DNA from: Hirudinaria manillensis
Taxonomy: Eukaryota > Annelida > Clitellata > Hirudinida > Hirudinidae
Length of the DNA: 64,000 nucleotides
Direction of reading: 5' to 3'
NCBI GenBank assembly: GCA_034509925.1
Contig: CM067533.1
Location: forward strand, 6,258,035 to 6,322,034
The translations under genes were made by a program, and so were the position numbers. Positions within the stretch are counted from its first letter, which is position 1. Each line of letters begins with the position of its first letter. Below the pieces are notes generated by a model, which saw nothing but the letters and a program-made list of their open reading frames with translations, did no database searches and was not told the DNA's origin. Positions 14,533-64,000 of this stretch are shown one piece after another.

Positions 14533-15484
14533 TCACTTCTTCGACGCCGCTTTGGTAACTCTCTTCGGTTTAGCGGGAGATTTGGCCTTTTTGGTTGCCT
14601 TGGGGCTTGCAGATGCCTTGACTTTCTTGGGCTTTGGTGGGGCTTTTTTGACCTCCTTTTTAGGGGACTTGGCCTTTGGTGACTGGACAGCAATCTTTGG
14701 TTTGGCAGGAGACTTAGTCTTTTTGGCTGCACCTGGTTTTGGCTTCTTTGCCTTGGACTCTGCTTCGGCCTTTGCCTTCTTGACCGGCTTTGCAGGCTTC
14801 TTGGCAGCTTCGGCAGCTGGCTTGGCTTTCTTGGTCGCAGGAGGTTCGGGCTTCACCGGAACGGCCTTGGCTTTCGGGGCCTTTTCAGCTGCTTTAGCTT
14901 TTGGCTTGGCTTCCTTGACGTCCTTGTCATTTCCCAATTTGAAGCTTCCAGAAGCACCAACACCTTTTGACTGCTTGAGAGTTTTGTTCTGAACCCCAAC
15001 CCTCAGAGCAATTTTAAGATGGGCATTTATGCCTTTCTCATCATTTCCCAATTTGTAGTTGTTTATGATATATTTGAGGATGGCTTGCCTGGATGATCCG
15101 CCACGTTCCTGCAAATTTAGATCGATTTTTATCTATCATGTGACCCTATAATCACGCTAGCCTCGAGCTGAATCGCGATGGTAAAAAACCAATCGAGTAC
15201 AAACGACGCGAGTTTTTCTAGAGCTCGATCATCGAAATCACGAGTTAAGACGAACCGAAAATAAATTCCCCGCAGATCGAAACCCGCGCCGACAGGAAAT
15301 TCGAATTCAAAGCGGTCCTCACCTTGAGAACTCCGAGGGCTTCTTTGATCATCTCGGAATATTTCGGATGATCGGCAACCTTCTTGGCCCTTGCGGCAGG
15401 GGAGGCCTTCTTCTTAGCGGCCTTACCCTTTTCGTTCGGGGCAACGGCGGAGGCGGGTTGTTCGACTTGGTTGTTGTCCGTCAT
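14533..15484 (-). CDS. H1: Linker histone H1, intron-containing
   Basis: H1 binds linker DNA and the nucleosome dyad and compacts chromatin. Two exons, 15323-15484 and 14533-15108, join in phase 0 across a 214-bp intron (AAG|GTGAGG to TTTGCAG|GAA) to give 245 residues. The ATG at 15484 begins MTDNNQVEQPAS. The winged-helix globular domain spans about residues 35-112: HPKYSEMIKEALGVLKERGG, then SSRQAILKYIINNYKLG and the closing KGVGASGSFKLG. The C-terminal tail is Lys/Ala/Pro-rich with repeated SPAK and SPKK motifs, the usual DNA-binding and CDK phosphorylation sites. The intron, and the lack of a histone stem-loop after the stop, point to a polyadenylated, replication-independent H1. It stands alone, without core histone neighbours. 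Confidence 0.96.
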
Positions 15485-21556: not shown

Positions 21557-22679
21557 TCAAAATATCTTAGAAGGAAAAAATCCTTTCAAGAAATTCAGCC
21601 CAAAAATGATTGAGAAGGATGCACAGGTGAGTGAAGAAAATACAATTGGAAAGATGATGGCTGTGATAACTGCAGCTGTAAATAAATAAGCTTTTAAGTG
21701 AATTAATTAAATGTATAACTTAAGAAAAAATTATACTTACGAGCTAATTCAGCAGTGACATTCATTGGGGAAGTAGTTGCAGGGTTTGCTGAGGGTAAGG
21801 AAGATGTCTTACTAGAAGTGAACTGTGTTTCTGCTGGAATGTAAATATCCACAGTAATCCGCAATAAGAGAAATGGCTAAAAATGGCTATTCCAATTCAA
21901 ATAGTTACATTTCCAATTCAAAAAATGTCTCAACAATTACAAAGTTAATCACAAAAGTACCTGAGCTGGATTGAATTATAGCAGTGGTTGATTTGGTAGA
22001 GATATTGGCTTGAGTTGGATTTGAAGCTTCAAAATAAAGATGGATCTCATAACTCAACTATTAAGTTCATATTAAAAGTTGCACTTTACCTAATACATTA
22101 ACTTTATAAGTAAAATTTATAAGGTGTTCTCCATTCTGAACAATGCCCTTACTCAGATAAAATGATTACAATTTTGAAGTTAACAATGGAGGTTGTGTTT
22201 GAAGATGAAATTAACAAAGGTTCATTTTTTTTTTAAATTAAATGACTTTTAAAGAAGTTTTCTTAAAAAAACGAATTACTTTCAGATTTGCAAAAAAATC
22301 CTTTTTCAAATTTTTTGATATTTTGCACTTATATAAATCCATTAAAATCAAGCCACATTTCCTAGCTTATAAAGTATGATCACAGATATCTTATACTTAT
22401 AAGATATACTTATGTCAGATAATCTGTATTATACCTGTTGTTGATTGAACAGTAGTGACAGTCATTTTGGAAGAACTAGGACTTGCTGTACTGGTGCCAG
22501 TATAAGTGAAAGTTGAACCTGCAAGAATCATACATTCATTCAAAACTTAATAATGAAAACAAAAGTCAAAAAGTATTTTTAATATAATAAAAAATAAATT
22601 GGGGGATGATAAAGAAATTTAAAAAAATCACCTGTGGAGGTAACCATAGTAGCTGTAGTCATTTCTTCCACTGTAGGAG
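21557..22679 (-). other. Mucin copy 1 exons 22-26: Ser/Thr stalk, transmembrane helix, tail
   Basis: Exons: 22632-22679, 22435-22518, 21961-22026, 21741-21833, 21557-21675. The first four are short phase 1-1 exons encoding Ser/Thr-rich stalk peptides (for example [15 protein letters not shown] and [17 protein letters not shown]). The last encodes [20 protein letters not shown] and a second hydrophobic stretch (SIIFGLNFL), and ends KGFFPSKIF before TGA at 21557-21559. The tail after the membrane is about ten residues, far shorter than in vertebrate MUC4. Confidence 0.87.
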
Positions 22680-25600
22680 CTTTAAAAGAAATAAATATTG
22701 ACATGAAAAAAATAATTGATTATGTATCAGATAACTCAATGAAGGTTTAAAATTGTGCAATACCATATTCACAATGAGGTCCTGAATATCCAATGGGGCA
22801 CTGACATTCATAACCATTAACTTTGTCAATGCATATTCCACCATGATCACATGGATTTGGTATGCAGTCATTAATATCTATGGTGAGATATAAATGATTG
22901 ATGTTAGGATAAAAATAATAAAATACCAAATTATTCATAAATATGTGCATATTTTAACCTTCTTCACATAATGTCCCATTATAGCCTGCCAGACACGTGC
23001 AATCAAAAGATCCGGGCTTTGATAAATTCGTCCCATTTGAACATAAACCACCATTTTGGCAAGGTGGTCCAGACCTCAAGTTATTAGCACTATCAGTAAC
23101 ACATGCATCAAGAACTGCAAAATAAAAAAACAATCTTATAAAAGCACTGCCCCTCAACTTTCTTATTAATTAACTATTGCTACAAATTTCCTACTTTCGC
23201 AACGGACTCCTCCAGAAAATGTAAACCAAGGTTCACAAGTGCAAATGTATGATCCATTTGTGTTTGTGCAGTTTCCATTTCCACACGTAGTACTATTTAT
23301 GGCGCATTCGTCGATGTCCTCTGTACAAAAAGGTATCTTCCAACCTTTTGAGTCACATGACGTGCATCCGTTGACATAAGAACATTTCTCTAAAAGGCAG
23401 TTACATTTCTCCATGCAGTTGATTCCAAAGAAACCTGCTTCACATGCTGCAAAGAATTTACGAAGGTTTGGAAATATTTCAGAAGAATATCAAAAGTATC
23501 GATCATCACTGATCTTTAAGAAGATAACGCAACAAGTCTGAATGTCAAGAGATATCAAATCGATGAAATGGCATGTATGTAGAAATAGGCATTTTTCAAT
23601 AAATTCATTTTAAAAAAAATTTGTTTAGTAGTCATTGGCATACTAACGTTGACAGAAGTCAAAGCCTTCTCTTCTATAATATCCAACTTTGCAATCACAA
23701 GAATAGGAGCCATTTTTATTCACACAGGTGCTGCTTGTCTGATTACAAGGTGGAGTTAATGGTGTTTGTGGATTGCATTCATCGATATCTAAAGTGTTTT
23801 CAAGAAGTTAAAATTCTTCGATTAAGGTGTTTGATATCAAACTAATAAACACTGTCCAAGAAATTTCAAAAAACATAAGCATAACATAAAAGCATAAATA
23901 AAAAACATAAAAGATAAATAAATAATAGGATCAAAATGTTTTATGCTTACCAACACATTTGTTTTGACTGGCACTATAACCTGGTTTGCATAGGCAGGTG
24001 GAGTTTGCAGTACAATAGTCACAATCTGGAGGCACTGAACAGTTTGCTAAAAGAAAGAAAAAGAAATACTTATTTATAACATTTTAGAATCAACAAATTA
24101 CAAAAATATGATTCAAACTCAAGGCAAAACAACTAGAATGAAAGATTTATCACTCACAATTTTTTAAGCATAAGTTGTTTGGCTGCATGATATATCCCTC
24201 AAAACAAGAGCAAATGAATGAACCTTCTGTGTTGGCACAAATTTGGTCACAACTGCTAGTACCCAATCTACACTCATCAATATCTGAATTAATTCAACAC
24301 TAAATTAGAGAATGAAACAATCCATGAAATGGCTGCTTGAAACTTGCCTTCACAAGGTGATGTCTGGCTAGATCTGGTGAAGCCTGCCTTACATATGCAT
24401 TCATAAGAAAACTCCAAATTATGGCAGTTTTCTCTTGTTGCATTACAAACTGGGGTGCTAGAATTCAGGCATTCATCAACATCTACAAAGCATATTATTA
24501 GATTTAAATGCTATTTCTAAAGAAACCATGGCATAATTACAATAACAAATATATAATAATTTAATATACCTATGCAACGGTCCATTGAGTCCTTCTGGGA
24601 GCCATTTGGGCAATCACCACAAACATACCCCTTGAATGGTTTGGAAATGTTCAAATTCGATGAACCATTAGTGGCTTCAATTAAAGTAATTAATTCACTC
24701 TCATTTAAGCTCGAGCAAGATCTGTTAAAGGAGCAGGGATTATTTGTGCAGTAATTAACAATTTCTTCGCACCTCTCCCCTAAAAATGTAATAAGATATT
24801 ATAATTATTACAATAGAGTTGTATGCATAAAATATTCTTACCTAAGTACACACCCCTTCTACATAGGCACTCCACTCGTTTAAAATCAGTATTGTTCGTT
24901 TTTATGGTCTGGTTCCACATGCAAGTACCTCTTCCAGTGCAGTCACACATGAGAACGGAAAGTGATGCTGGCTTAGCCTCTTTGCCATTAGTGTCGTTGC
25001 CATACAATCTGTTAAATTTATTTAATTGTAAATTAATATAGTCTCACGGTTCCTGAAAGTATTGTGAATTCTGTCGATTAGCAGTTTTCACAGCAAAAAT
25101 GCTAAAACTTTGCAAATGTAAATATAAATATATAGTATAAATGTAGTATCCATCATTTTCACTCAGTTTCGGAACCAATACAAATAATAACACAACGTAA
25201 GTATAATTAAAAGATTATTAATTTAATTAATTCATAGCAAGAGTCAAAACGGGTACGTTAGATTGAATTCCTCCGATGTTTTCGGTTTGGCCTGTAGTTC
25301 CCACAGTTTACAAAAGGGCGGATTCAAACAAATAAGTTTCGTCTGCAAAGATGAACTGCTCTCTGCCCTCAGTTGAAAGTCGTATTCCGTAGAGTTAATG
25401 CTGATAGTAATATTTGTTGTAACATTTACAGTAAATTGTTGGTATTCCAGTGGAACTATTATGAGAGGAACGTAATTATCTGTAATAATTACATAGTTGA
25501 AGAAATTAAACCATGTAACAGAGATGAAGTTAATAAAAAATCTTTAATTCTAACCTTTAAGAGATGTTTGGGTATCCTGAATCTCTTGCGAGCTTGTCTT

Positions 25601-28600
25601 AGTCGCGTCAGCGAAGGTTTTGCTACCGGTGACACAATAATCGTAGACGCAATTGTTATCCGTGACATTCTTTGTAGAGCAGCTTCTCACAGCTTCTGTT
25701 TTGTCCACTTTGCATGATCCACCGATATCGTCGGAGAATATTGGAACAAAATCCAAATGCTGGAATGTGTCAAAAGTTTCATTATTGCTCACGTTGTACC
25801 AAAACAGGGAATCTTCAGCATTAGATATAGCCCCTGGAGAAATAAGAGTTTGTTTTATGTCTTTAAAAGACTTCAGAAACAGCCATTTGCATAGACTAAC
25901 AGCTCTGTCCAAATTGGAATATTTGCCTCTCAGAGGATGTTATAGGGATAACCGTACCATCTAGAAAAGTCAAATCATTATCTGTGTTTCCATCAAAAGT
26001 TCCGTATAATCCTTTAAATTTCAAGTCTTTTGCCGAGGCGGGAACATTTAAAGTGAGTTTTAAAGCTTTTTCTGCTATTTCAATAGTTGCTTGGATCCCT
26101 GAATATTTTCGTCAATTTAGTTTTATTTAGCAATTATTTATTTAACATTAATTCCAGATTAATAATTTGCTTACCTGAAGAAAATTTCATTATGAGAGCC
26201 GAATTATTGGTCATGATAGTTGCAGTTTGTATAAGTGGATATTTTGTTCCATTGGCAGAATCAGCGGAATACAACCAATTGGTTATCGCATCCGAATTAC
26301 CATTATCGTCTTTTATTATCAAGGCTAAAACGATATTTTTATAACAGTTAATTTAACTTCAAATTTTGTTAAGCATTTGCAAATGTCTGACTTGTTTGAT
26401 CTTGAGCCAGTAGGACACACATTCTCGGAGATGTATAGTTTACTGTGTAATCTTTGAATGCGAAACCCGTGAAAACCGTTGCATTTCCAAAAGTACCATC
26501 TGGAGCTATGTAGGGCGAGGTCCGGGCTTGAACTTTCAGAACATCGGAATAAATCATCCAATATTCTCCCCAGCCGTTGAAGGTATAAGAGAAACCATCC
26601 AATGTGGTAATGTGGGGATCGCCAAACAGGAAAGCTTGATTTATCAAAACGAAGCAACATGAACTATATTTAGTGGCATATTAACATTATCAATTTATTG
26701 TAACCGAAAAACGGCGGACGATATCCCCAGCAGTAATTTTTAGGTCGGACTTCGTAAAAGAGTTCACAGTTGTTCGATTCTAAACAGCACCATCTCTTCG
26801 GAAGAACATCTTCGTTATAATTCGAGTATGGGTACCAGTAAGGATGATATCTCAATAGGCTTCCAGAATCATAAGTTCGTGAAGTATCCAACCATGAGGA
26901 CGATATGAAGAACCAAGGGCTCCACCACCACCACCACCACGTCCAGTAAAATGAAGTGTAATAGTAACAACATTTCTGGAAATGATTTGTAGAATACTTT
27001 CTTAATTATTATAGAAAATTGATGGCTGGAAAAACCATTAACCTGCGCTGAAGTTGGATATTGTGGAAAATTAATAATGAAGCACAAAAGATTCGATCTC
27101 CATTCGTATGTATATATTCCGTAATTTGGATCAATCATGGCCTGCCACAGATTACAGGGACATTGAGGCATCCACCAGTAATACCAGTAATAGTAATAAT
27201 AAGATGTTATTTGTTGGTCATACCAGGCGTAACACTTATACGCCGAGAGATGTTGGAACTCGGCTTGTGGCAATGATAATTGGAAGAACCACTGTCCTGG
27301 TTTTCCTGAGTGTAGTTATTTCAAAAATATTTTACTGGTTATCTTTAATGATTCAAGGCAAAGTTTTCGTGAGTTTAAAAATAAAAGGTAGTGTATTAAA
27401 AGGTAATTTACATTACAAACGTAACACGAATTCCAAGGATAATTAAAAAAAAAAAATAATGATAATTCTAAGCTAAAAAGATAAAAAATTAAACGTCCTA
27501 ACATTTGATCTTAAGTTATTTCCAATAATTCTATTACCCTTTGGTCCAATAAGAAATGGTAGTTCGAAAGCGTTTGCTGATCCTGATGTTCGGAAATAAT
27601 ATTTGTATTTGTCTCCGAAATAACTTAAGCTATCGTCCATTTTGTAGCCTTGTGCATTGTTTCTATAATTCCAGCCCATGAATTCGTAAGAGGGGATGGC
27701 GTAACTGCGGCCGTTAGAATTATCATTTGTCAGCACTAGCTGGAATGTTGAAACCTTAAAACGATTGATTGATATGTTTATAAATCATTTGTGAAGATAA
27801 AATTCAAAAGGACTAATGTTTAATATTTGGTACAAATGCATTTATAAATTATCCAAACATTTTTAAATTATCCAAATAATAGAATCTTCAAATAACACCA
27901 ACTTCTTTTCGAGTATTGGGTCCAAATGGATAAGGTGATACATTCGCCCACGTAAAGACGCAGACCATGGTTGGTGAAAAACTGGCAGTGTAGTCAATAT
28001 ATTCAATAACATTCCTCTGAACTTTATCAAAAGCAACTTGGTCATTCCAGCTGACATAAGAATATTTGGTTCTTCGGGAAATGCAGCGATAGAAGATTTT
28101 TCCTGGATTCACGTAAGATCCAAAGTTGTTCAAATCGATATCCGCCCAAAATGGAGCAATAACGGCATTCGAAGTCATCCAACGGAGTGGATCTGAGAAA
28201 TAAGGTTGAACAGCAACTACAGGATTATCGAAAGAAATGAATCCGTTGACATTCACCTGAATATTTGGAACAGAAGGACGATATGAGAGATAGAAATGAT
28301 TATTATTTGCAATAAAAATGAGAACTGTGAAAATCGCGAAACCTACATAAGCCCTTCTGTGATATTTTGTGCCAAATAAAAAGTAATCGGGGAGATAAAC
28401 TTCAAAATATCCGTCGTTCAAGTCCCAAAAGTATCCGGAAGAATCGCCATTATTATTTCCATAGTCCATTAAAAGTTGACCACGTGCTGTCAATAGAAAT
28501 CACTTAAATATCGAGTTGTCAACGAGAATTAAAGATTATTAAAAGAAAAAAGAAATCGCAAACTTCCAAAGAATTAAGTCGTAATATACCTTGATATCTA

Positions 28601-31600
28601 GTTGTGGTTGAAGGAATTGTTGTCGTAGTTGTTATTGGAAATTTTGTCGTCATTTTAGTTGTTGTGGTTCTGGTGGTAGGGAGAGTTGTGAATTGTGTGC
28701 CGATGAGAGAGGTTTTGGAGGAGGTGGCGAGAAAAGAAATAGTGTTTGGGAATGATGAGGTTTCAAGAAAGGTGGAAGGAGCAAGGGAATATTTTGATGT
28801 TGAACTGGACGAAATATTTGAAGACGGGAAGTAAGTTGAAAATCCAGTCGTTTCAACTGTTCTGGTTGATTGCGTAGTTGTTGGAAATGTTGTGGTTAGT
28901 GGCTTACTTGTTAGAACTGTTGTAGTTGATTCGGTAGTTGTTGGAACTGTTGTTGTTGTTGATTGAGTGGTTGTTGGAACTGTTGTTGTTGATGATTGAG
29001 TGGTTGTTGGAACTGTTGTTGTTGATGATTGAGTGGTTGTTGGAAGTGTTGTTGAAACTGTTATCGTTGTTGATTGCGTGGTTGTTGGGAGTGTTGTTGT
29101 AGATTCCGTGGTTGTTGGAATTGTTGTTGATTCGGTAGTTGTTGGAACTGTTGTTGATTCCGTGGTTGTTGGAACTGTTGTTGATTCCGTGGTTGTTGGA
29201 ACTGTTGTTGATTCCGTGGTTGTTGGGAGTGTTGTTGTTGATACCGTGGTTGTTGGAATTGTTGTTGATTCCGTGGTTGTTGGAACTGTTGTTGACTCCG
29301 TGGTTGTTGGGAGTGATGTTGTTGATTCCGTGGTTGTTGGGAGTGTTGTTGTTGATTCCGTGGTTGTTGGAATTGTTGTTGATTCCGTGGTTGTTGGAAC
29401 TGTTGTCGACTCCGTGGTTGTTGGGAGTGATGTTGTTGATTCCGTGGTTGTTGGAACTGTTGTTGATTCCGTGGTTGTTGGAACTGTTGTTGTTGATTCG
29501 GTAGTTGTTGGAACTGTTGTTGTTGATTCCGTGGTTGTTGGAACTGTTGTTGTTGATTCCGTGGTTGTTGGAACTGTTGTTGTTGATTCCGTGGTTGTTG
29601 GAACTGTTGTTGATTCCGTGGTTGTTGGGAGTGTTGTTGTTGATTCCGTGGTTGTTGGAATTGTTGTTGATTCCGTGGTTGTTGGAACTGTTGTTGACTC
29701 CGTGGTTGTTGGGAGTGATGTTGTTGATTCCGTGGTTGTTGGAACTGTTGTTGATTCCGTGGTTGTTGGAACTGTTGTTGTTGATTCGGTAGTTGTTGGA
29801 ACTGTTGTTGTTGATTCCGTGGTTGTTGGAACTGTTGTTGTTGATTCCGTGGTTGCTGGAACTGTTATGGTAGATACAGTTGTGTTTGATTCAGTTGTTG
29901 TAGGAAATGTTACACATTCAGTTGTGGTCGAGATTGTTGTTGATTGAGTTGTAGATCCCGTAGATGTTTCTGTTGTGGTAGGAACTGTGGTTATGCATCC
30001 AGTAGACGATGAAATTCCAGCTACAGGAAGGCCATATGTTGAAGCCGGAATTGGAGTTGATGTCGAACTAATCGGTGTTGATGTCGAAGTAGTTGTAGTC
30101 GATGTAGATGTTGATGTTGTTGAATCAGTTGATGACGATTCACTTATTGTCGAAAGAAATCTTGGAATTGTTGACATTGAATATGTACTCGATTCTGTTG
30201 AAGTTTCAGTTGTTGATGATTCCGTAGAAGTCGAGGGAATCCATCCTGGGGTCCATGGGGGTGTTGTCGACGATGGTTCAGACCCATTTGAAGTGGTAGA
30301 TGTTGATTCCGTTGTGGATTCAGATGTGGTTGGAATTGTTCTTGATTCTGTTGTAGATTCAGTTGAGGTTGGAATTGTTGTTGATTCTGTTGTGGATTCA
30401 GTAGTCGTTGGAATTGTTGTTGATTCTGTTGTGGATTCAGATGTGGTTGGAATTGTTGTTGATTCTGTTGTGGATTCAGATGTGGTTGGAATTGTTGTTG
30501 ATTCTGTTGTGGATTCAGATGTGGTTGGAATTGTTGTTGATTCTGTTGTGGATTCAGTTGTGGTTGGAATTGTTGTTGATTCTGTTGTGGATTCAGTTGT
30601 GGTTGGAAATGTTGTTGATTCTGTTGTGGATTCAGTGGTCGATGGAATTGTTGTTGATTCTGTTGTGGATTCAGTAGTCGTTGGAATTGTTGTTGATTCT
30701 GTTGTGGATTCAGTGGTCGTTGGAATTGTTGTTGATTCTGTTGTGGTTTCAGTTGTCGTCAACGGTGTACTTGTTGATTCTGTTGTGGATTCAGTGGTCG
30801 CCGGAATCGTTGTTGATTCTGTTGTGGATTCAGATGTGGTTGGAATTGTTGTTGATTCTGTTGTGGATTCAGTTGTGGTTGGAATTGTTGTTGATTCTGT
30901 TGTGGTTTCAGTTGTGGTTGGAATTGTTGTTGATTCTGTTGTGGTTTCAGTGGTCGTTGGAACTGTTGTTGATTCCGTTGTGGATTCAGTGGTCGATGGA
31001 ATTGTTGTTGATTCTGTTGTGGATTCAATGGTCGATGGAATTGTTGTTGATTCCGTTGTGGATTCAGTTGTCGTTGGAATTGTTGTTGATTCCGTTGTTG
31101 ATTCAGTTGTCGTTGGAATTGTTGTTGATTCTGTTGTGGTTTCAGTTGTCGTCAACGGTGTACTTGTTGATTCTGTTGTGGATTCAGTGGTCGCCGGAAT
31201 CGTTGTTGATTCTGTTGTGGATTCAGATGTGGTTGGAATTGTTGTTGATTCTGTTGTGGATTCAGTTGTGGTTGGAATTGTTGTTGATTCTGTTGTGGTT
31301 TCAGTTGTGGTTGGAATTGTTGTTGATTCTGTTGTGGTTTCAGTGGTCGTTGGAACTGTTGTTGATTCCGTTGTGGATTCAGTGGTCGATGGAATTGTTG
31401 TTGATTCTGTTGTGGATTCAGTGGTCGATGGAATTGTTGTTGATTCTGTTGTGGATTCAGTTGTGGTTGGAATTGTTGTTGATTCCGTTGTGGATTCAGT
31501 TGTCGTCAACGGTGTACTTGTTGATTCTGTTGTGGATTCAGTTGTGGTTGGAAATGTTGTTGATTCTGTTGTAGTTTCAGTGGTCGTTGGAATTGTTGTT

Positions 31601-42562: not shown

Positions 42563-42609
42563 TTTCTTGGAGTCGAAAAAAATCGTAAAAATAATTGCGA
42601 ATAATTAAA

Positions 42610-42617
42610 TATTTATA
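42610..42617 (-). promoter_or_regulatory. TATA box of mucin copy 1
   Basis: TATAAATA on the minus strand lies about 50 bases upstream of the signal-peptide ATG. No other start codon intervenes. Confidence 0.55.
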
Positions 42618-42619
42618 GA

Positions 42620-48015: not shown

Positions 48016-48766
48016 TTATATTAGCCAGAAGTTATTTACAATCACCGTTCTACAAATAAACTGAAATTCTTATTAGCCTGTGATCCATAGCCTTGGGGTG
48101 TAAGGTAACAGAAACCCTTTTCAGGGTCACGCTAGTTTTGGTGCGTGAGAGCTCGATAATATTCTATAAACATATAGGCAGCTCACAAGGACTTGACTAA
48201 CTCTGATTATATTTAACTTAGAATTCCTTAATACTCCTGAATATTTTGCTTTGTTAACGTCTATAGTATGTGCGGATCTTTCCAGATGAATTCATTTTTC
48301 TAGCATGTTATTTGATCCAAGTCTAGCTAGTTGCTAACATATCTAAACACGTTTTCGTCATTCTTAAATGTCATGAAGACACGAAAATTGGCAACCCACC
48401 CAGCAATGACTTTCATCGATCAGCTTCAAAGCAGTTGCAAAAAATAAATAACAAAAAAAAACAATTTAAAGTAAATTTTAGGTCAAATCAACGCTTTGTC
48501 ATGTTAATAAAAAATTATCCAATGAATAAATTAAAACCAAAATCAGTGCTATTAATAAAATAAAAATAAGGCCACTTCAAATGTGTAAATAAGCACCTCA
48601 AATAAGATTAAGTCCATCCTTATATTAAATAAATATTACCACTAAGATGAGAGGTCACTTTTGATTCATTAACCGATCAAGTATTAGTTTATTATCCATA
48701 CAATTATTATACTTATTGCATTCAAGATTAAGCCATTCTCCATCTAAAATCATTTTCACTATGATG
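48016..48766. repeat. 3' flank of mucin copy 2, counterpart of 20769-21556
   Basis: Intermittent match to the 3' flank of copy 1, beginning at the shared ATTAGCCAGAAGTTATTTAC. Divergence is visibly higher here than in the exons around 51550-57780. Confidence 0.7.
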
Positions 48767-51700: not shown

Positions 51701-51795
51701 TAATAAAAACTAAATTGGGGGTTCATAAAGAAATTTTTAAAAATCACCTATGGAGTTTGCCGTAGTAGCAGTAGTCATTTCTTCCACTATAGGAG
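48767..51795 (-). other. Mucin copy 2: stalk, transmembrane and tail exons
   Basis: Exons: 51748-51795, 51551-51634, 50588-50671, 50269-50322 (probable), 48951-49019, 48767-48885. The third and fourth are duplicated versions of one copy 1 stalk exon. The fourth has lost the ancestral acceptor position but can use CCAG just inside, staying in phase 1. The last exon encodes the same [17 protein letters not shown] membrane segment and ends RGFFPSKLF before TGA. Confidence 0.82.
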
Positions 51796-54700
51796 CTTTA
51801 AAAGAAATAAATATTGACATGAAAAAAATAATTGATTATGTATCAGATAACTCAATGAAGGTTTAAAATTGTACAATACCATATTCACAAAGAGGTCCTG
51901 AATATCCAATGGGGCACTGACATTCATAACCATTAACTTTGTCAATGCATATTCCACCATGATAACATGGATTTGGTATGCAGTCATTAATATCTATGAT
52001 GAAATATAAATGATTGTTGTATGATAAAAATAATAAAATACCAAATTATTCATAAATATGTGCATATTTTAACCTTCTTCACATAATGTCCCATTATAGC
52101 CTGCCAGACATGTGCAATCAAAAGATCCTGGCTTTGATAAATTCGTCCCATTTGAACATGAACCACCATTTTGGCAAGGTGGTTCAGACCTCAAGTTATT
52201 AGCACTGTCAGTAAAACATGCATCAATAACTGCAACAAAAAAAAACAATCTTATAAAAGCACTGCCCCTCGAATTTCTTATTAATTAACTATTGCTACAA
52301 ATTTCCTACGTTCACAACGGACTCCTCTAGAAAACGTAAACCAAGGTTCACAAGTGCAAATGTATGATCCATTTGTGTTTGTGCAGTTTCCATTTCCACA
52401 CGTAGTACTATTTATGGCGCATTCGTCGATGTCCTCTGTACAAAAAGGTATCTTCCAACCTTTTGAGTCACATGACGTGCATCCGTTGACATAAGAACAT
52501 TTCTCTAAAAGGCAGTTACATTTCTCCATGCAGTTGATTCCAAAGAATCCTGCTTCACATGCTGCAAAGAATTTACGAAATTTATCAAATTGATGAAATG
52601 GCCGGTATGTAGAAATAGGCATTTTTCAATAAATTAATTTTAAAAAAAATTGTTTAGTAGTCATTGGCATACTAACGTTGACAGAAGTCAAAGCCTTCTC
52701 TTCTATAATATCCAACTTTGCAATCACAAGAATAGGAGCCATTTTTATTCACACAGGTGCTGCTTGTCTGATTACAAGGTGGAGTTAATGGTGTTTGTGG
52801 ATTGCATTCATCGATATCTAAAGTGTTTTCAAGAATTTCAAAATGTATGTTAAAATTCTTCGATTAAGGTGTTTGATATCAAACTAATAAACACTGTCCA
52901 AGAAATTTCAAAAAACATAAGCATAACATAAAAGCATAAATAAAAAACATAAAAGATAAATAAATAATTGGATCAAAAATGTTTTATGCTTACCAACACA
53001 TTTGTTTTGACTGGCACTATAACCTGGTTTGCATAGGCAGGTGGAGTTTGCAGTACAATAGTCACAATCTGGAGGCACTGAACAGTTTGCTAAAAGAAAG
53101 AAAAAGAAATAATTATTTATAACATTTTAGAATCAACAAATTACAAAAATATGATTCAAACTCAAGGCAAAACAACTAGAATGAAAGATTTATCACTCAC
53201 AATTTTTTAAGCATAAGTTGTTTGGCTGCATGATATATCCCTCAAAACAAGAGCAAATGAATGAACCTTCTGTGTTGGTACAAATTTGGTCACAACTGCT
53301 AGTACCCAATCTACACTCATCAATATCTGAATTAATTCAACACTAAATTAGAGAATGAAACAATCCATGAAATGGCTGCTTGAAACTTGCCTTCACAAGG
53401 TGATGTCTGGCTAGATCTGGTGAAGCCTGCTTTACATATGCATTCATAAGAAAACTCCAAATTATTGCAGTTTTCTCTTGTTGCATTACAAACTGGGGTG
53501 CTAGAATTCAGGCATTCGTCAACATCTACAAAGCATATTATTAGATTTAAATGCCGTTTCTAAAGAAACCATGGCATAATTACAATAACAAATATATAAT
53601 AATTTAATATACCTATGCAACGGTCCATTGAGTCCTTCTGGGAGCCATTTGGGCAATCGCCACACACATACCCCTTGAATGGTTTGGAAATGTTCAAATT
53701 CGATGAACCATTAGTGGCTTCAATTAAAGTAATTAATTCACTCTCATTTAAGCTCGAGCAAGATCTGTTAAAGGTGCAGGGATTATTTGTGCAGTAATTA
53801 ATAACGTTTTGGCATTTGTCCCCTGAAAATGTAATAGGATAATGTAATTCCTTTACAAGAGCTGGTATCCGAACAAATTACCTGAGTACAATGCCCTTTC
53901 ACACAGACACTCCACTCGTTTAAAATCAGTATTGTTCGTTTTTATGGTCTTGTTCCACATGCAAGTACCTCTTCCAGTGCAGTCACACATGAGAACGGAA
54001 ATTGTTGCTGGCTTAGCCTCTTTGCCATTAGTGTCGTTGCCATACAATCTGTTAAAAGTGACAATTTATCTAATTGTAAATTAATATAGTCTCACGGTTC
54101 CTGAAAGTATTGTGAATTCTGTCGATTAGCCGTTTTCACAGCAAAAATGCTAAAACTTTGCAAATGTAAATATATAGTATAAATGTAGCATCCATCTTTG
54201 CCGTTAGCGTCGCTACCATACAATCTGTTTAAAGTGATAATTTGATAACTGCAAACTAATACACTCTCATGGTTCTTGAAAGAGTTGTAAATTCTGTCCA
54301 CTAGCAGGTTTCATAGCAAGAATCCTAAAACTTTGTAAATATCGTTTCCATCAATTACCTTCGATTCGCATATAAGTAATAGCATGGCCTAAACCTAATT
54401 ATCAAACGCAATAATTGAATTAATTCCTAATAAGAGTCAAAATGGATACGTTATATTGAACTCCTCCGATGTTTTCGGCGTGGCATGTAGATCCCACACA
54501 TGACAAAGGGGCGGATTCGAACAAATAAGTGTTGTCTCTAAGTTTAAACTGCTCTCGACCCTCAGATGGAAGCCCTTCTCCGTTGAGTTAATGCTGATAG
54601 TAATATTTGTTGTGACATTTACAGTAAATTCTTGGTAATCCAATGGAACTATTATGAGAGGAACGTAATTATCTGTAATAATTACATAGTTAAAGAAATT

Positions 54701-57700
54701 TAAATTGTGAAATAGAGATCAAGTCAAAAAAAGTATTCCAATTCTTACCTGAGAGTGAAGTTTTGGTATCTTGAATCTCTTGGGAGCTTGTCTTAGTCGC
54801 GTCAGCGAAGGTTTTGCTACCGGTGACACAATAATCGTAGACGCAGCTGTTGTCCGTGGCATTCTTTGTAGAGCAGCTTCTCACAGCTTCTGTTTTGTCC
54901 ACTTTGCATGATCCACCGATATCGTCGGAGAATATTGGAACAAAATCCAAATGCTGGAATGTGTCAAAAGTTTCATTGTTGCTCACGTTGTACCAAAACA
55001 GGGAATCTTCAGCATTAGATATAGCCCCTGGAGAAATAAGAGTTTGTTTTATGTCTTTAAAAGACTTCAGAAACAGCCATTTGCATAGACTAACAGCTCT
55101 GTCCAAATTGGAATATTTGCCTCTCAGAGGATGTTGTAGGGATAACCGTACCATTTAAAAAAGTCAAATCATTATCTTTGTTTCCATCAAAAGTTCCGTA
55201 TAATCCTTTAAATTTCAAGTCTTTTGCCGAATCGGGAACATTCAAAGTTAATTTCAAAGCTTTTTCTACTATTTCAATAGTTGCTTGGATTCCTGAATAA
55301 TTTCACAAAATTAGTTTGTTTGGTAATATAAACTAATGAGAATTTAACATTATATCATTTATTTTTCAGATCAGTCATATGCTTGCCTGAAGGAAAACTC
55401 ATAATAAGAGCCGAATCATTGGCCATGATAGTTGCAGTTTGTATAAGTGGATATTTTGTTCCATTGGTGGAGTCAGCAGAATAGAACCATTTGGTTATCG
55501 CATCCGAATTACCATTATCGTCTTTTATTATCAAGGCTAAAACGATATTTTTATAACAGTTAATTTACCTTCAAATTTTGTTAAGTATTTGCAAATAACT
55601 GACTTGTTTGATCTTGAGCCAGTAAGACAGACATTCTCGGAGATGTATAGTTTACTGTGTAATCTTTGAATACGAAACCCGTGAAAATCGTTGCATTGCC
55701 AAAAGTACCATCAGGTGCAATGTAGAGCGAGGTCCGGGCTTGAACTTTCAGAACATCGGAATAAATCATCCAATATTCTCCCCAGCCGTTGAAGGTGTAA
55801 GAGAAACCATCCAATGTGGTAATGTGGGGATCGCCAAACAGGAAAGCTTGATTTGTCAAAACGAAGCAACATGAACTATATTTAGTGGCATATTAACTTA
55901 GCAATTTATCAATTTATTGTAACCGAAAAACGGCGGACGATATCCCCAGCAGTAATTTTTAGGTCGGACTTCGTAAAAGAGTTCACAGTTGTTTGATTCT
56001 AAACAGCACCATCTCTTCGGAAGAACATCTTCGATATAGTTCAGGTATGGGTACCAATATGGATGGTATCTCAATAGGCTCCCAGAATCATGAGTTCGTG
56101 AAGTATCCAACCACGAGGACGACATGAAGAACCAAGGGCTCCACCACCACCACCACCACGTCCAGTAAAATGATGTGTAATAGTAACAACATTTCTGGAA
56201 ATAATTTGTAGAAGACTTTCTTAATTATTATCGAAAATTGATGGCTGGAAAAGATTTCCATGCCTTTATTACAGTGTTATTGCTGAATTTTTTCAGATGT
56301 TTTATTATTTTATTATTTTCAATATATTATTTTGAGCTTGAATTAACCTGCGCTGAAGTTGGATATTGTGGAAAATTCACAACAAAGCACAAAAGATTCG
56401 AACTCCATTCGTATCTATATATTCCGTAAGTTGGATCAATCATGGCCTGCCACAGATTACAGGGACATTGAGGCATCCACCAGTAATACCAGTAATAGTA
56501 ACTGTAAGATGTTATTTGTTGGTCATACCAGGCGTAACACTTATACGCTGAGAGATGTTGGAACTCGGCTTGTGGCAATGATAATTGGAAGAACCACTGT
56601 CCTGGTTTTCCTGAGTGTAGTTATTTCAAAAATATTTTATTGGTTATCTTTAATGATTCAAGGCAAAGTTTTCGTGAGTTTAAAAATAAAAGGTAGTATA
56701 TTAAAAGGTAATTTACATTACTAAAGTAACACAAATTCCAAGGATAATAAAAAAAACAATGATAATTCTAAGCTAAAAAGATAAAAAATTAAACGTCCTA
56801 ACATTTGATCTTAAGTTATTTCCAATAATTCTATTACCCTTTGGTCCAATAAGAAATGGTAGTTCGAAAGCGTTTGCTGATCCTGATGTTCGGAAATAAT
56901 ATTTGTATTTGTCTCCGAAATAACTTAAGCTATCGTCCATTTTGTAGCCTTGTGCATTGTTTCTATAATTCCAGCCCATGAATTCGTAAGAGAAGATGGC
57001 GTAACTGCGGCCGTTAGAATTGTCATTTGTCAGCACTAGCTGGAATGTTGAAACCTTAAAACAATTGATTGATATATTTATAAATCATTTGAGACGATAA
57101 AATTCAAAAGGACAAAAGTTTATTATTTGTTACAAATGCATTTTTAAATTATCCAAACATTTTTAAATTATCCAAATAATAGAATCTTCAAATAACACCA
57201 ACTTCATTTTGAGTATTGGGTCCAAATGGATAAGGTGATACATTCGCCCACGTAAAGACGCAGACCATGGTTGGTGAAAAACTGGCAGTGTAGTCAATAT
57301 ATTCAATAACATTCCTCTGAACTTTATCAAAAGCAACTTGGTCATTCCAGCTGACATAAGAATATTTGGTTCTTCGGGAAATGCAGCGATAGAAGATTTT
57401 TCCTGGATTTACGTAGGATCCAAGGTCGTTCAAATCGATATCCGCCCAAAATGGAGCAATAACTGCATTCGAAGTCATCCAGCGGAGTGGATCTGAGAAA
57501 TAAGGTTGAACAGCAACTACAGGATTATCGAAAGAAATGAATCCGTTGACATTCACCTGAATATTTGGAACAGAAAGACGATATGAGAGATAGAAATGAT
57601 TATTATTTGAATATAAAAATGAGAACTGTGATAATCGCGAAACTTACATAAGCCCTTCTGTGATATTTTGTGCCAAATAAAAAGTAGTCGGGAAGATAAA

Positions 57701-60700
57701 CTTCAAAATATCCGTCGTTCAAGTCCCAAAAGTATCCGGAAGAATCGCCATTATTATTTCCATAGTCCATGAGAAGTTGACCACGTGCTGTCATTAAAAA
57801 TCTAATATGTATCGAGGGGTAGAATTAAACGGGAATTCAAAATTATTAATAAAACGAATGAAATCGCAAATTTCCAAAGAATTAAGACGTAATATACCTT
57901 GATATGGAGTTGTGGTCGAAGGAATTGTTGTCGTTGTTGTTATTTGAAATTTTGTCGTCATTTTAGTTGTTGTGGTTCTGGTGGTAGGGAGAGTTGTGAA
58001 TTGTGTGCTGATGAGAGAGGTTTTGGAGGAGGTGGGGAGAAAAGAAATAGTGTTTGGGAATGATGAGGTTTCAAGAAAGGTGGAAGGAGCAAGGGAATAT
58101 TTTGATGATGTTGAACTGGATGAAATATTTGAAGATGTGAAGTAAGTTGAAAATCCAGTCGTTCCAACTGTTCTGGTTGATTGCGTAGTTGTTGGAAATG
58201 TTGTGGTTAGTGGCTTACTTGTTAGAACTGTTGTAGTTGATTCGGTAGTTGTTGGAACTGTTGTTGTTGTTGATTGAGTGGTTGTTGGAACTGTTGTTGT
58301 TGTTGATTGAGTGGTTGTTGGAACTGTTGTTGTTGATGATTGAGTGGTTGTTGGAACTGTTGTTGTTGATGATTGAGTGGTTGTTGGAAGTGTTGTTGAA
58401 ACTGTTATCGTTGTTGATTGCGTGGTTGTTAGAACTGCTGTTGTTGATTCGGTAGTTGTTGGAACTCTTGTTGTTGATGGCGTGGTTGTCGGAACTTTTG
58501 TTGTTGATTTCGTGATTGTTGGAACTGTTGTTGTTGATGGCGTGGTTGTAGGAACTGTTGTTGTTGTTGATTGCATGGTTGTTGGAACTGCTGTTGTTGA
58601 TTCGGTAGTTGTTGTAACCGTAGAAGTGTTTGTTATCGAACCGGCTGATGTAACTGTTGTTGTTGATTTCGTAGTTGTTGGAACTGTTGTTGTTGATGGC
58701 GTGATTGTCGGTACTGTTGCTGTTGATTGCGTGGTTCTTGGAACTGTTGTTGTTGATTGCGTGGTTGTTGTAACCGTAGTTGTATATGCGTTGGTTGAAT
58801 GCGTACTCGATGCTGTTGAAGTTGCCAGCTGTCCACCGCCTATTGGGGTTGTTCCAGTTGTAAATGATAACGGTTCAGTGCCATTTGAAGTGTTTGTTAT
58901 CGAACCGGGTGATGTAACTATTGTTGTTGATTTCGTGGTTGTTGGAACTGTTGTTGTTGATGGCGTGATTGTCGGTACTGTTGCTGTTGATTGCGTGGTT
59001 GTAGATACATTGGTTGAATGCGTACTCGATGCTGTTGAAGTTGACAGTTGTCCACCGCCTATTGGGGTTGTTCCAGTTGTAGATGATAATGGTTCAGTGC
59101 CATTTGAATTGTTTGTTATCGATCCGGTTGGTGATGGAACTGTGGCTGTTGATTCGGTGGTTGTTGGAACTGTTGCTATGGATTCGGTTTTTGTTAACGT
59201 AGAGGTTGAAAGTGTTGTTGAGGAAAAAATAGTTGTGGGAACTGTTGTGGTAGATATAGTTGTGTTTGGTTCCGTTGTTGAAGGAAATGTTACACATTCA
59301 GTTGTAGTCGAGATTGTTGTTGATTGAGTTGTAGAGCCTGCTGTTGTTACCGTCGATGTTTCGGTGGTTGTAGGAATCGTAGTTATGCATCCAGTAGACG
59401 ATGAAATTCCAGCTACAGGAAGGATATATGTTGAAGGCGGAATTGGTGTTGATGTAGTTGTTGATGTAGAAGTAGTTGTAGATGTAGATGTAGATGTTGA
59501 TGTTGTTGAATCAGTTGATGACGATTCAATTATTGTCGAAAGAAATCTTGGAATTGTTGATATTGAATAAGTACTCGATTCTGTTGAAGATGAATATGTA
59601 CTCGACTCTGTTGAAGTTGTTCTGCAACATGTTGAAGTTTCAGTTGTTGATGATACCGTAGAAGTCGAGGGAATCCCTCCTGGGGTTAATGTCGACGATG
59701 GTTCAGTCCCATTTGAAGTGGTAGTTGTTGATTCTGTTATGGTGTTTGGTGACGTAGATGTTGTGGGAACAGTTGTTGTTGATTCAGTACTTCTCGGGAC
59801 ACTTGCTGTTGTAGTTGTGGGAAATGTTGTTGATTCAGTGGTTCCTGGAACTTTTGTAGTAGAAGTCGGTGAAGCTGATGTGGATTCAGTAGCTGTGAAA
59901 GTAGTCGTGGTTGACTTTGTAGTTGGAATTACTGTTGTTGATTCTGTGGTTATGGGAACTGTGCTGGTTGATTGCCAGGTTGTTGTAACTATTGTGGTCG
60001 ATTGCGTAGTTGTCGGAACTGTTGTTGTCGATTTGGTGGTTGTTAGAAAAGTTGTTGATCCCGTTGTTGTCGAAAGTGTTGTGGTTGATTGCGTAGTTGT
60101 CGGAACTGTTGCTGATTCCGTTGTAGTTAGAACTATTGTTGTTGATTGCGTAGTTGTCGATTCGGTAGTTGTTGGACCAGTTGCTGTTGAATCCGTTATT
60201 GTCGGAACTGTTGTGGTTGATCCCGTTGTTGTTGGAACTATTGTTGATTTGGTAGTTATCGGAACTGTTGTGGTTGGAAGTGTTGTTGATTCCGCGGTTG
60301 TTGGAACTGTTGTTGTTGATTCAGTACTTCTAGGGATACTTGCTGTTGTAGTTGTGGGAAATGTTGTTGATTCAGTGGTTCCTGGAACTGTTGTTGATTC
60401 AGTGGTTCCTGGAACTGTTGTTGATTCAGTGGTTCCTGGAACTGTTCTAGTAGAAGTCGGTGAAGCTGATGTGGATTCAGTAGCTGTGAAAGTAATCGTG
60501 GTTGACCTTGTAGTTGGAATTACTGTTGTTGATTCTGTAGTTATGGGAACTGTGCTGGTTGATTGCCAGGTTGACGGAACTGTTGTTGTCGATTCCGTGG
60601 ATGTTGCAATTATTGTTGTTGATTCCGTCGTTGTTGGAACTGTTGTTGATTCCTTGGATGTTGGAACTGTTGTTGTTGATTGCGTAGTTTTCGGAATTGT

Positions 60701-63700
60701 TGTTGTTGATTCCGTTGTAGTTGGAACTATTGTTGTCGATTCGGTAGTTGTTAGAACCGTTGTTGATTGCCTAGTTGTCGGAACTGTTGTTGATTCCGTT
60801 GTTGTTGGAACTATGGTTGATTCCGTGGTTGTTGGAAATGTTGTTGTTGATACGGTAGTTGTTGGGATCGTTGTTGATTCCGTGGTTGTTGGAACTGTTG
60901 TTGTTGATTGCGTAGTTGTCGGAACTGTTGTTGATTGGGAGGTTATTGGAACTGTTGTTGTTGATTGCGTAGTTGTCGGAACTGTTGTTGATTGGGAGGT
61001 TGTTGGAACTGTTGTTGTTGATTGCGTGGTTGTTGGAACTGTTGTTGTTGATTGCGTAGTTGTCGGAACTGTTGTTGATTCCGTGGTTGTTGGAGCTGTT
61101 GTTGTTGATTGCGTGGTTGTTGGAACTGTTGTTGTTGATTCGGTTGTTGTTGGAATTGTTGTTGATTCTGTGGTTGTTGGAACTGTTGTTGATTGCGTGG
61201 TTGTTGGAACTGTTGTTGTTGATTCCGTGGTTGTTGGAACTGTTGTTGATTGGGTGGTTGTTGGAACTGTTGTTGTTGATTGCGTAGTTGTCGGAACTGT
61301 TGTTGATTCCGTGGTTGTTGGAACTGTTGTTGATTGGGTGGTTGTTGGAACTGTTGTTGTTGATTGCGTGGTTGTTGTTGATTCGGTTGTTGTTGATTCT
61401 GTGGTTGTTGGAACTGTTGTTGATTGCGTGGTTGTTGGAACTGTTGTTGTTGATTCCGTGGTTGTTGGAACTGTTGTTGATTGGGTGGTTGTTGGAACTG
61501 TTGTTGTTGATTCCGTGGTTGTTGGAACTGTTGTTGATTGGGTGGTTGTTGGAACTGTTGTTGTTGATTGCGTGGTTGTTGGAACTGTTGTTGATTCCGT
61601 GGTTGTTGGAACTGTTGTTGTTGATTGCGTAGTTGTCGGAACTGTTGTTGATTCCGTGGTTGTTGGAACTGTTGTTGTTGATTGCGTAGTTGTCGGAACT
61701 GTTGTTGATTCCGTGGTTGTTGGAACTGTTGTTGTTGATTGCGTAGTTGTCGGAACTGTTGTTGATTGGGAGGTTATTGGAACTGTTGTTGTTGATTGCG
61801 TAGTTGTCGGAACTGTTGTTGATTGGGAGGTTGTTGGAACTGTTGTTGTTGATTGCGTGGTTGTTGGAACTGTTGTTGTTGATTGCGTAGTTGTCGGAAC
61901 TGTTGTTGATTCCGTGGTTGTTGGAGCTGTTGTTGTTGATTGCGTGGTTGTTGGAACTGTTGTTGTTGATTCGGTTGTTGTTGGAATTGTTGTTGATTGG
62001 GTTGTTGTTGGAACTGTTGTTGTTGATTGCGTGGTTGTTGTTGATTCGGTTGTTGTTGATTCTGTGGTTGTTGGAACTGTTGTTGATTGGGTGGTTGTTG
62101 GAACTGTTGTTGTTGATTGCGTAGTTGTCGGAACTGTTGTTGATTCCGTGGTTGTTGGAACTGTTGTTGATTGGGTTGTTGTTGGAACTGTTGTTGTTGA
62201 TTGCGTGGTTGTTGTTGATTCGGTTGTTGTTGATTCTGTGGTTGTTGGAACTGTTGTTGATTGGGTGGTTGTTGGAACTGTTGTTGTTGATTCCGTGGTT
62301 GTTGGAACTGTTGTTGATTGGGTGGTTGTTGGAACTGTTGTTGTTGATTGCGTGGTTGTTGGAACTGTTGTTGATTCCGTGGTTGTTGGAACTGTTGTTG
62401 TTGATTGCGTGGTTGTTGGAACTGTTGTTGTTGATTGCGTAGTTGTCGGAACTGTTGTTGATTCCGTGGTTGTTGGAACTGTTGTTGTTGATTGCGTAGT
62501 TGTCGGAACTGTTGTTGATTCCGTGGTTGTTGGAACTGTTGTTGTTGATTCCGTGGTTGTTGGAACTGTTGTTGATTGGGTGGTTGTCGGAACAGTTGTT
62601 GTTGATTCCGTGGTTGTTGGAACTGTTGTTGTTGATTCCGTGGTTGTTGGAACAGTTGTTGTTGATTGCGTAGTTGTTGGAACTGTTGTTGTTGATTCCG
62701 TGGTTGTTGGAACAGTTGTTGTTGATTCCGTGGTTGTTGGAACAGTTGTTGTTGATTCCGTGGTTGTTGGAACAGTTGTTGTTGATTCCGTGGTTGTTGG
62801 AACTGTTGTTGATTGCGTGGTTGTTGGAACTGTTGTTGATTGCGTGGTTGTTGGAACTGTTGTTGTTGATTCGGTTGTTGTTGGAATTGTTGTTGATTCT
62901 GTGGTTGTTGGAACTGTTGTTGATTGCGTGGTTGTTGGAACTGTTGTTGTTGTTGATTCCGTGGTTGTTGGAACTGTTGTTGTTGATTGCGTAGTTGTCG
63001 GAACTGTTGTTGATTCCGTGGTTGTTGGAACTGTTGTTGTTGATTGCGTGGTTGTCGGAACTGTTGTTGATTCCGTGGTTGTTGGAACTGTTGTTGTTGA
63101 TTCCGTGGTTGTTGGAACTGTTGTTGTTGATTCCGTGGTTGTTGGAACTGTTGTTGATTGCGTGGTTGTTGGAACTGTTGTTGTTGATTCCGTGGTTGTT
63201 GGAACTGTTGTTGATTGGGTGGTTGTTGGAACTGTTGTTGTTGATTGCGTGGTTGTTGGAACTGTTGTTGTTGATTCGGTTGTTGTTGGAATTGTTGTTG
63301 ATTCTGTGGTTGTTGGAACTGTTGTTGTTGATTGCGTGGTTGTTGGAACTGTTGTTGTTGATTGCGTAGTTGTCGGAACTGTTGTTGATTCCGTGGTTGT
63401 TGGAACTGTTGTTGATTCCGTGGTTGTTGGAACTGTTGTTGATTCCGTGGTTGTTGGAACTGTTGTTGTTGATTCGGTTGTTGTTGGAATCGTTGTTGAT
63501 TCCGTGGTTATTGGAACTGTTGTTGATTCCGTGGTTGTCAGAACTGTTGTTGATTCCGTGGTTGTTGGAACTGTTGTTGTTGATTGCGTAGTTGTCGGAA
63601 CTGTTGTTGATTCCGTGGTTGTCGGAACTGTTGTTGATTCCGTGGTTGTTGGAACTGTTGTTGTTGATTGCGTGGTTGTTGGAACTGTTGTTGTTGTTGA

Positions 63701-64000
63701 TTCCGTGGTTGTTAGAACTGTTGTTGTTGATTCCGTGGTTGTCGGAACTGTTGTTGATTCCGTGGTTGTTGGAACTGTTGTTGTTGATTGCGTAGTTGTC
63801 GGAACTGTTGTTGATTCCGTGGTTGTTGGAACTGTTGTTGTTGATTCGGTTGTTGTTGGTATCGTTGTTGATTCCGTGGTTGTTGGAACTGTTGTTGTTG
63901 ATTGCGTGGTTGTTGGAACTGTTGTTGTTGATTCCGTGGTTGTTGGAACTGTTGTTGTTGATTCCGTGGTTGTTGGAAACGTTGTTGTTGATTCGGTGGT
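48767..64000 (-). CDS. MUC4-like transmembrane mucin, copy 2 (5' end beyond window)
   Basis: Tandem paralog of the mucin at 21557-42562 with the same exon lengths from the NIDO exons to the EGF exons and the same terminal exon. The repeat exon (57898 to the window edge) has no in-frame stop in the part I translated (57898 to about 60950). The repeat register stays constant to at least 63795, so unlike copy 1 this gene looks intact. The signal peptide and promoter are not in the window. Order: Thr/Ser/Pro repeats, NIDO, AMOP, VWD with GDPH, cysteine-rich linker, eight EGF-like units, stalk, transmembrane segment, tail SKLF. Substitutions relative to copy 1 are scattered and mostly conservative. 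The stalk has one more exon than copy 1. Confidence 0.9.
51880..53525 (-). other. Mucin copy 2: EGF-like exons
   Basis: Exons: 53391-53525 (GC donor, as in copy 1), 53201-53326, 52994-53089, 52677-52817, 52310-52561, 52074-52229, 51880-51993. Cysteines and DxDEC calcium-binding signatures are kept. Introns are nearly as similar to copy 1 as the exons. Differences include NPCYHGG for NPCDHGG. Confidence 0.92.
53613..55536 (-). other. Mucin copy 2: rest of VWD and cysteine-rich linker exons
   Basis: Exons: 55387-55536, 55095-55292, 54749-55027, 54450-54672, 53882-54048, 53613-53822. The first has a GC donor (TCAG|GCAAGC) where copy 1 has GT. The split Trp codon of FGQSW is conserved. The intron between the fourth and fifth of these exons contains a degenerate duplicate of the fifth exon's 5' end (54196-54345). 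Confidence 0.87.
54196..54345 (-). pseudogene. Duplicated exon fragment in mucin copy 2 intron
   Basis: A diverged second copy of 54018-54175: the acceptor region and first codons of the exon at 53882-54048, reading [10 protein letters not shown] where the real exon has [10 protein letters not shown]. It is followed by stops and no donor, so it is a dead partial exon. Copy 1 lacks it. Confidence 0.75.
55604..57787 (-). other. Mucin copy 2: NIDO, AMOP and start of VWD exons
   Basis: Exons: 57648-57787, 57203-57556, 56803-57054, 56348-56596 (or to 56610), 55924-56194, 55604-55846. Lengths equal those of copy 1 exon for exon. The motifs [32 protein letters not shown], the poly-Trp tract, CWGYRPP and [11 protein letters not shown] are all retained. 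The same in-frame requirement applies at the NIDO/AMOP junction as in copy 1. Confidence 0.88.
58792..59229 (-). repeat. 219-bp internal duplication in mucin copy 2 repeat exon
   Basis: Two adjacent copies, starting at about 58792 and 59011, each encode a 73-residue segment with [18 protein letters not shown] and [10 protein letters not shown]. The offset is 219 bp, a multiple of three, so the frame is kept. Confidence 0.8.
60880..64000 (-). repeat. 27/30-bp coding tandem array of mucin copy 2
   Basis: Units alternate between 27 bp (VPTTTESTT) and 30 bp ([10 protein letters not shown]), with larger blocks repeated (for example around 61060-61640 and 61890-62440). The array continues past the window edge. 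Confidence 0.9.

Follow-up and report, generated by a model that had tools for sequence, protein, structure and literature searches.

Two adjacent genes, A and B, in a 64,000-nucleotide stretch of the genome of the annelid Hirudinaria manillensis most probably arose by tandem duplication of a single gene for a membrane-tethered mucin of the MUC4 type. The stretch, here called the window (G000:C8:6258035-6322034), comes from an assembly of 148.4 Mb in 23 contigs. Each gene is modelled with 26 exons on the minus strand, running from a signal-peptide exon through a giant Thr/Ser/Pro repeat exon to a NIDO domain, an AMOP-like block, a VWD domain with a GDPH motif, a series of EGF-like modules and a transmembrane segment. 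A preliminary description of the window had proposed a same-strand tandem pair with the domain order of MUC4 in an invertebrate genome, and the models agree with it. The pair is not alone in its genome: a second pair of the same plan, genes C and D, lies on the same contig.

The exons of gene A were read by hand and checked by script, and those of gene B were obtained by mapping gene A's exons onto the second locus. In each model all 25 introns close with AG, and donors are GT apart from a few GC (exon 15 in both genes, exon 9 in gene B). Signal peptides were judged from the sequence itself. Gene A, whose model opens with an ATG at 42562 and closes with a TGA that ends at 21557, has the following parts:

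42508..42562, minus strand: exon 1, ATG and signal peptide (MKFRLFRLLLFILVMNNC), phase 1, donor GTGAGT (model)
28590..39399, minus strand: exon 2, giant Thr/Ser/Pro repeat exon of 10,810 bp, main unit 39 nt (model, composition)
35470..37066, minus strand: patch of about 1.6 kb within exon 2; the three frame breaks all lie here, as do 7 of the array's 10 unusual codons (frame reading)
27538..28486, minus strand: exons 3-5, NIDO, span with introns (Pfam, 76 bits, cut-off 25)
26705..27305, minus strand: exons 6-7, divergent AMOP-like domain (profile comparison; no Pfam match)
25555..26634, minus strand: exons 8-11, VWD with GDPH, then C8-3_MUC4 (Pfam)
22764..25479, minus strand: exons 12-21, linker and about 10 EGF-like modules (model, Pfam)
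21741..22679, minus strand: exons 22-25, stem rich in Ser/Thr (model)
21557..21675, minus strand: exon 26, transmembrane segment, tail NFLKGFFPSKIF and stop (model)

Exon 1 and its flank are 90% identical over 219 bp to the corresponding exon upstream of gene B, and all 24 exons downstream of the repeat exon are open. Intron 1 includes a 101-bp unit repeated head to tail in three perfect copies (40692-40996).

Gene B (66382..48767, minus strand) extends 2382 bp beyond the end of the window, where it was read from the flank. It translates as a single frame of 4050 residues (4051 codons including the stop) with zero internal stops and, as assembled, is intact. Its parts are these:

66331-66382, minus strand: exon 1, outside the window (model)
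57898..64000 and on to 65859 outside the window, minus strand: exon 2, repeat exon of 7,962 bp with units of 30 and 57 nt, 2654 codons without a stop
56838..57787, minus strand: exons 3-5, NIDO (Pfam, 82 bits, cut-off 25)
55924..56610, minus strand: exons 6-7, AMOP-like (profile comparison; no Pfam match at E ≤ 10)
54749..55846, minus strand: exons 8-11, VWD and C8-3_MUC4, GDPH at residue 3091 (Pfam)
51880..54672, minus strand: exons 12-21, linker and EGF-like modules (model, Pfam)
48951..51795, minus strand: exons 22-25, Ser/Thr-rich stem, 46% serine plus threonine (model, composition)
48767..48885, minus strand: exon 26, transmembrane segment and short tail (window-19 hydropathy up to 2.13)

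Window-19 hydropathy exceeds 1.6 in only two regions of gene B, one of which is the C-terminal segment. The tail after this segment is about 12 residues in both models, in keeping with the earlier statement that the proteins have almost no cytoplasmic tail. At 54195-54340 the window also contains a partial second copy of the start of gene B's exon 13 with its flank, 80% identical to the matching stretch of gene A and unused in the model.

Domain searches of the spliced models, which the preliminary description had put forward as its check, recovered most of the expected architecture. In the spliced exons that follow the repeat exon, Pfam places NIDO above its cut-off in both genes and lists EGF_CA in four stretches of each, along with EGF, hEGF and cEGF; the EGF region of gene B has 62 cysteines in 465 residues. 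C8-3_MUC4 scores 26.9 bits in gene A and 28.4 in gene B (cut-off 25). VWD is absent from the Pfam list at E ≤ 0.01 when the whole spliced models are scanned, and gene A's first VWD exon by itself reaches 20.6 bits, whereas the spliced block scanned alone exceeds the cut-off of 22.9 in both genes (33.1 bits in A, 32.9 in B). GDPH is present in both, and the VWD of gene B is free of cysteines. Among solved structures no close relative of the VWD block was found, the distant best being FCGBP (E 2e-8), followed by a designed protein (E 1e-5) and weak matches to gel-forming mucins. SEA, CUB, ZP, FN3, TIG and Sushi are missing from the Pfam matches of either gene at E ≤ 0.01.

The AMOP domain is the part of the search that did not come out as expected, as the block between NIDO and VWD was found through profile comparison only. 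An alignment of this block from genes A to D was set against a second alignment, made from the AMOP region at three further loci in the genome; the two matched over 55 columns with a score of 34.6 and a probability of 67%. Shuffling the columns of the second alignment 200 times gave at most 21.2, and reversing it gave 16.4. All three comparison loci lie above the AMOP cut-off in the genome search, and the two scanned as proteins score 23.6 and 38.3 bits (cut-off 25). The comparison supports calling the block AMOP-like. Solved structures offered no credible match for it.

The two repeat domains are built from different units, as the preliminary description had noted. Their composition is similar: threonine, serine and proline make up 53%, 16% and 8% of gene A's repeat (read in pieces across the frame breaks, with short stretches there omitted) and 52%, 13% and 9% of gene B's 2654 residues. 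ESTTEST occurs 158 times in gene A, counted in the same pieces, versus once in gene B; PTTT[EQ]STT(T)V occurs 16 versus 139 times, and QSTT 3 versus 83 times. The NIDO-proximal part of gene A's repeat exon still carries the B-like unit, and nearly all other units differ between the genes; most of the array was therefore replaced in one or both copies once the gene had been duplicated. Across 126 of gene A's 39-nt units, differences fall 90, 40 and 245 times at codon positions 1, 2 and 3, and the third position is the most variable in each of four segments of the array. This excess indicates that the array evolved as coding sequence.

Outside the repeats the genes differ at 352 of 6342 ungapped columns (5.6%), introns included. 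Exons 3-23 hold 73 synonymous and 95 non-synonymous differences, giving a synonymous divergence (dS) of 0.097, a non-synonymous divergence (dN) of 0.032 and a ratio of 0.32, which is an average across both copies and reflects constraint on the protein. The differences are far from evenly spread: nearly identical blocks alternate with blocks diverged by about 15%, dS is 0.035 in exons 15-19 and 0.148 in exons 12-14, and the variance-to-mean ratio per 100 columns is 7.96, compared with a maximum of 1.68 in 2000 permutations. The longest identical run, which includes an intron, is 319 bp, and none of 5000 permutations had one as long. Because selection on the protein could not maintain identity in an intron, gene conversion is the simplest reading of the mosaic, and the pattern suggests that it has occurred here. 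It also qualifies the earlier description of the pair as fresh: average dS is indeed low (about 0.10), but this value averages over the mosaic and so does not date the duplication.

A and B are members of a larger set. Exon-level searches of the genome found at least 10 matches for NIDO, at least 7 for the VWD exon and at least 3 for AMOP, the last at loci other than A and B. Genes C (C8:7.92 Mb) and D (C8:7.98 Mb) lie in the region C8:7.908-7.992 Mb, 1.6 Mb from A and B, and share their plan, giant repeat exons included. Of five stretches aligned between them, four show 92-97% identity and the fifth 81%; judged on their sequences, they are a second, independent pair. Gene D reaches 83 bits for NIDO and 28.5 for VWD (Pfam) and is 37% identical to gene B across AMOP-VWD. 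Both C and D differ from A and B in having SSISSASIGSTES-type repeats, a longer tail and GEPH in place of GDPH (the VWD opens with FGEPH rather than FGDPH), so that cutting would not be expected there; C8-3 also falls below its cut-off in D. The spliced models of C and D come from a home-made aligner and can be relied on only as far as about the C8-3 region: that of C contains internal stops, some of them before this point, and that of D contains them from the linker on. Upstream of D, at C8:7936570-7962155, a long TTES-type array has a signal-peptide-like start and continues, beyond a gap of 200 N, into the array of D, whose N-terminus it may represent. Part of this array is stop-rich and lacks a steady frame, resembling uncorrected reads. 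Directly downstream of D, glutathione-S-transferase-like exons were seen in tandem by eye (piece L031 3161-8347).

Three further loci with NIDO, AMOP and VWD served as comparators, and we take them to be of Mesh/SUSD2 type. Those at C5:9.034 Mb and C3:12.966 Mb are long single frames, whereas that at C5:8.59 Mb consists of two frames about 4 kb apart. The two single-frame loci share NIDO, AMOP, VWD and a C8-3-like region with A and B and differ from them in having TIG in both and a sub-threshold Sushi match in one (17.4 bits, cut-off 20.7). No repeat domain or EGF match appeared in the comparator frames scanned. Conversely, neither a TIG between NIDO and AMOP nor a membrane-near Sushi, the traits of this type, is listed for A or B (Pfam, E ≤ 0.01).

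The preliminary description missed that gene A's repeat exon, unlike that of gene B, is not open from end to end. The reading frame shifts twice along it, near 36.65 and 35.48 kb, so that three frames follow one another, and a stop interrupts the frame at 37064-37066. Gene A could be a recently disabled pseudogene in which these breaks are real and the full-length mucin comes from gene B only, a reading to which we give somewhat less than even weight. One stop and two frame changes within 10.8 kb would fit it, as gene B's repeat exon (8.0 kb) is free of stops, and so are the SSISS-type arrays, which as far as fetched measure at least 14.4 kb in C and about 14.2 kb in D. Amino-acid changes polarised against C and D also fall more often on A (15) than on B (7), with 61 unpolarised; this is a weak difference, and removing 3 A-side and 1 B-side changes past residue 1240, where the alignment is poor, leaves 12 versus 6. 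Decay should be dispersed, whereas the breaks, like 7 of the 10 unusual codons, cluster at about 35470-37066 (one such codon, at 36640, may be an artefact of frame choice at an edge). The open state of all downstream exons and the dN/dS ratio also argue against a pseudogene, as does the TTES-type array upstream of D, in which 7 stops interrupt the frame and about 5.5 kb follow no steady frame. In its first part (7936601-7948000 examined) there is one clear frame change; in its second (7952001-7962000 examined), short runs extend from 7952001 to about 7957550, some 4 kb from the 200-N run, and of the 34 runs listed (those under 60 bases being left out) 21 have no clear repeat frame. An array so corrupt in appearance indicates that repeat arrays can be badly called in this assembly, though real decay could also account for its disorder. 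Lesions per kb were considered as proof that gene A's breaks are real and dropped, the clean controls (gene B's repeat exon and the SSISS arrays) being offset by the many-break TTES array. We lean slightly towards an assembly fault: gene A probably works, and about 1.6 kb of its repeat exon would then be miscalled.

Duplication of one MUC4-type gene must also be weighed against an independent origin of the plan and against a mistaken joining of exons. A repeat exon and an EGF stalk may have been added, independently of vertebrate MUC4, to a Mesh/SUSD2-like surface protein with NIDO, AMOP and VWD. Mucin repeats are known to arise repeatedly, the genome also encodes NIDO-TIG-AMOP-VWD proteins as long single frames (a weak Sushi match occurs in one), and one of these proteins shares C8-3_MUC4 with A and B. 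We nonetheless regard such convergence as rather unlikely, given that TIG and Sushi are unlisted in A, B and the scanned blocks of D, and that A and B share with MUC4 the direct order NIDO-AMOP-VWD, the EGF stalk and, in gene B, the cysteine-free VWD. It is highly improbable that the locus instead encodes a secreted repeat protein and a distinct NIDO-to-transmembrane protein on separate transcripts: in the gene B model, the exon phases keep a single frame from the signal peptide through the repeat to NIDO, and the same exon boundaries are predicted in gene A, though no search was aimed at a second start beside NIDO. Several observations do weigh against a MUC4-type duplicate pair. Gene A's VWD holds one cysteine; AMOP has no Pfam match in any of the four copies, A to D; C8-3_MUC4 is not exclusive to the plan, a Mesh/SUSD2-like protein of this genome reaching 26.5 bits, while gene D falls short of the cut-off of 25 with 17.6; the exon models were built by hand and through A-B homology; and gene A's repeat exon carries three frame breaks in this assembly. 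On balance, we favour tandem duplication of a single MUC4-type gene.

If expressed as modelled, such a mucin would enter the secretory pathway by its signal peptide, and the product of the giant exon would be expected to form a densely O-glycosylated rod. The NIDO/AMOP-like/VWD/C8-3 block and the EGF stalk would raise this rod over an epithelial surface, anchored by the single transmembrane helix, with a tail that leaves little room for signalling of its own. By analogy with MUC4, cleavage at GDPH may yield two subunits, the outer with the repeats and the inner held in the membrane, and their parting could shed the coat; in gene B the cysteine-free VWD would offer nothing to tie the cleaved halves together inside that domain. 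After duplication, constraint together with gene conversion would have kept the core alike, and a different unit would have expanded to take over most of the array. More broadly, and only tentatively, the MUC4 plan may have been tandem-duplicated at least twice in this annelid, with conversion preserving the anchoring core of A and B as the repeat rod is replaced, and with C and D lacking the canonical GDPH. If so, this would be a two-speed gene, able to change the chemistry of its coat while leaving the anchor untouched.

Elsewhere in the window, Pfam identifies the following features:

9406-9654, minus strand: Filamin repeat
12126-12461, minus strand: CH domain
14533-15132, minus strand: linker histone H1

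More filamin-like frames were seen by eye at 2-11 kb, and three small open reading frames between A and B have no Pfam match at E ≤ 0.01. Contig C23 of the same assembly is a mitochondrial genome of 15.6 kb, partly N. Reading AGR as Ser rather than Gly scores better in five of five of its proteins (cox1 +0.8, cox2 +6.2, cox3 +8.5, nad1 +3.2, nad2 +5.1 bits), and cox3 reaches 371.6 bits under code 5, compared with 354.4 under code 4 and 362.1 under code 9. A tunicate origin, which extra tRNA calls and code 13 had suggested, was rejected on these scores. Its genes lie on one strand in the order cox1-N-cox2-D-G-cox3-Q-nad6-cob ... nad1-I-K-nad3-S-nad2, which we take to be the annelid order of Lumbricus. 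The calls for cox1-3, nad1 and nad3 are backed by Pfam and that for nad2 by Proton_antipo_M, whereas nad6 is sub-threshold and cob was read by eye; tRNA calls out of pattern (two on the other strand, one inside nad1) were taken as false. A full COX1 match at C9:3026446-3027786, with a score equal to that of C23, is either mitochondrial DNA copied into the nucleus or the product of a misjoin.

Proteins of this kind are already known from vertebrates and cnidarians, and genes A and B add annelid members. As predicted from their sequences, they share with vertebrate MUC4 a signal peptide, a long Thr/Ser repeat, NIDO, AMOP (AMOP-like in A and B), VWD with GDPH, EGF-like domains, a single transmembrane segment and the lack of SEA. 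An excerpt of one study describes the VWD of human and chicken MUC4 as lacking cysteines (PMC1552070), a feature that gene B shares. An excerpt of another gives human MUC4 a putative cleavage at GDPH and three EGF-like domains (PMC8660890), compared with about ten in A and B, counted by eye in the sequence, which upholds the earlier claim of more EGF units than in MUC4. The annelid genes depart from vertebrate MUC4 in an AMOP too divergent for Pfam and in their very short tail, and the likeness is judged by domain plan. Among the open-access PubMed Central papers listed in the searches, none describes MUC4-type mucins of annelids or tunicates, judged by titles and the openings of abstracts; an excerpt of a paper on the gut barrier of Ciona deals with gel-forming mucins and, in that part, leaves MUC4 unmentioned (PMC6109156). 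Non-vertebrate examples, to which the preliminary description had rightly alluded, are published for cnidarians: the mucin4-like proteins of Actinia tenebrosa and others have, according to an excerpt of that report, a signal peptide, NIDO, AMOP, VWD and a transmembrane segment, with Thr/Ser-rich low-complexity regions of variable length, all of which recalls A and B (PMC9080433). Some of them also carry CUB, ZP, FN3 or SEA according to the same excerpt (PMC9080433), none of which is listed in A and B (E ≤ 0.01), whereas A and B have EGF_CA. Genes A and B thus place full MUC4-plan genes in an annelid, and their presence side by side allows the turnover of a membrane mucin's repeats to be compared, within one genome, with that of the domains that anchor it.

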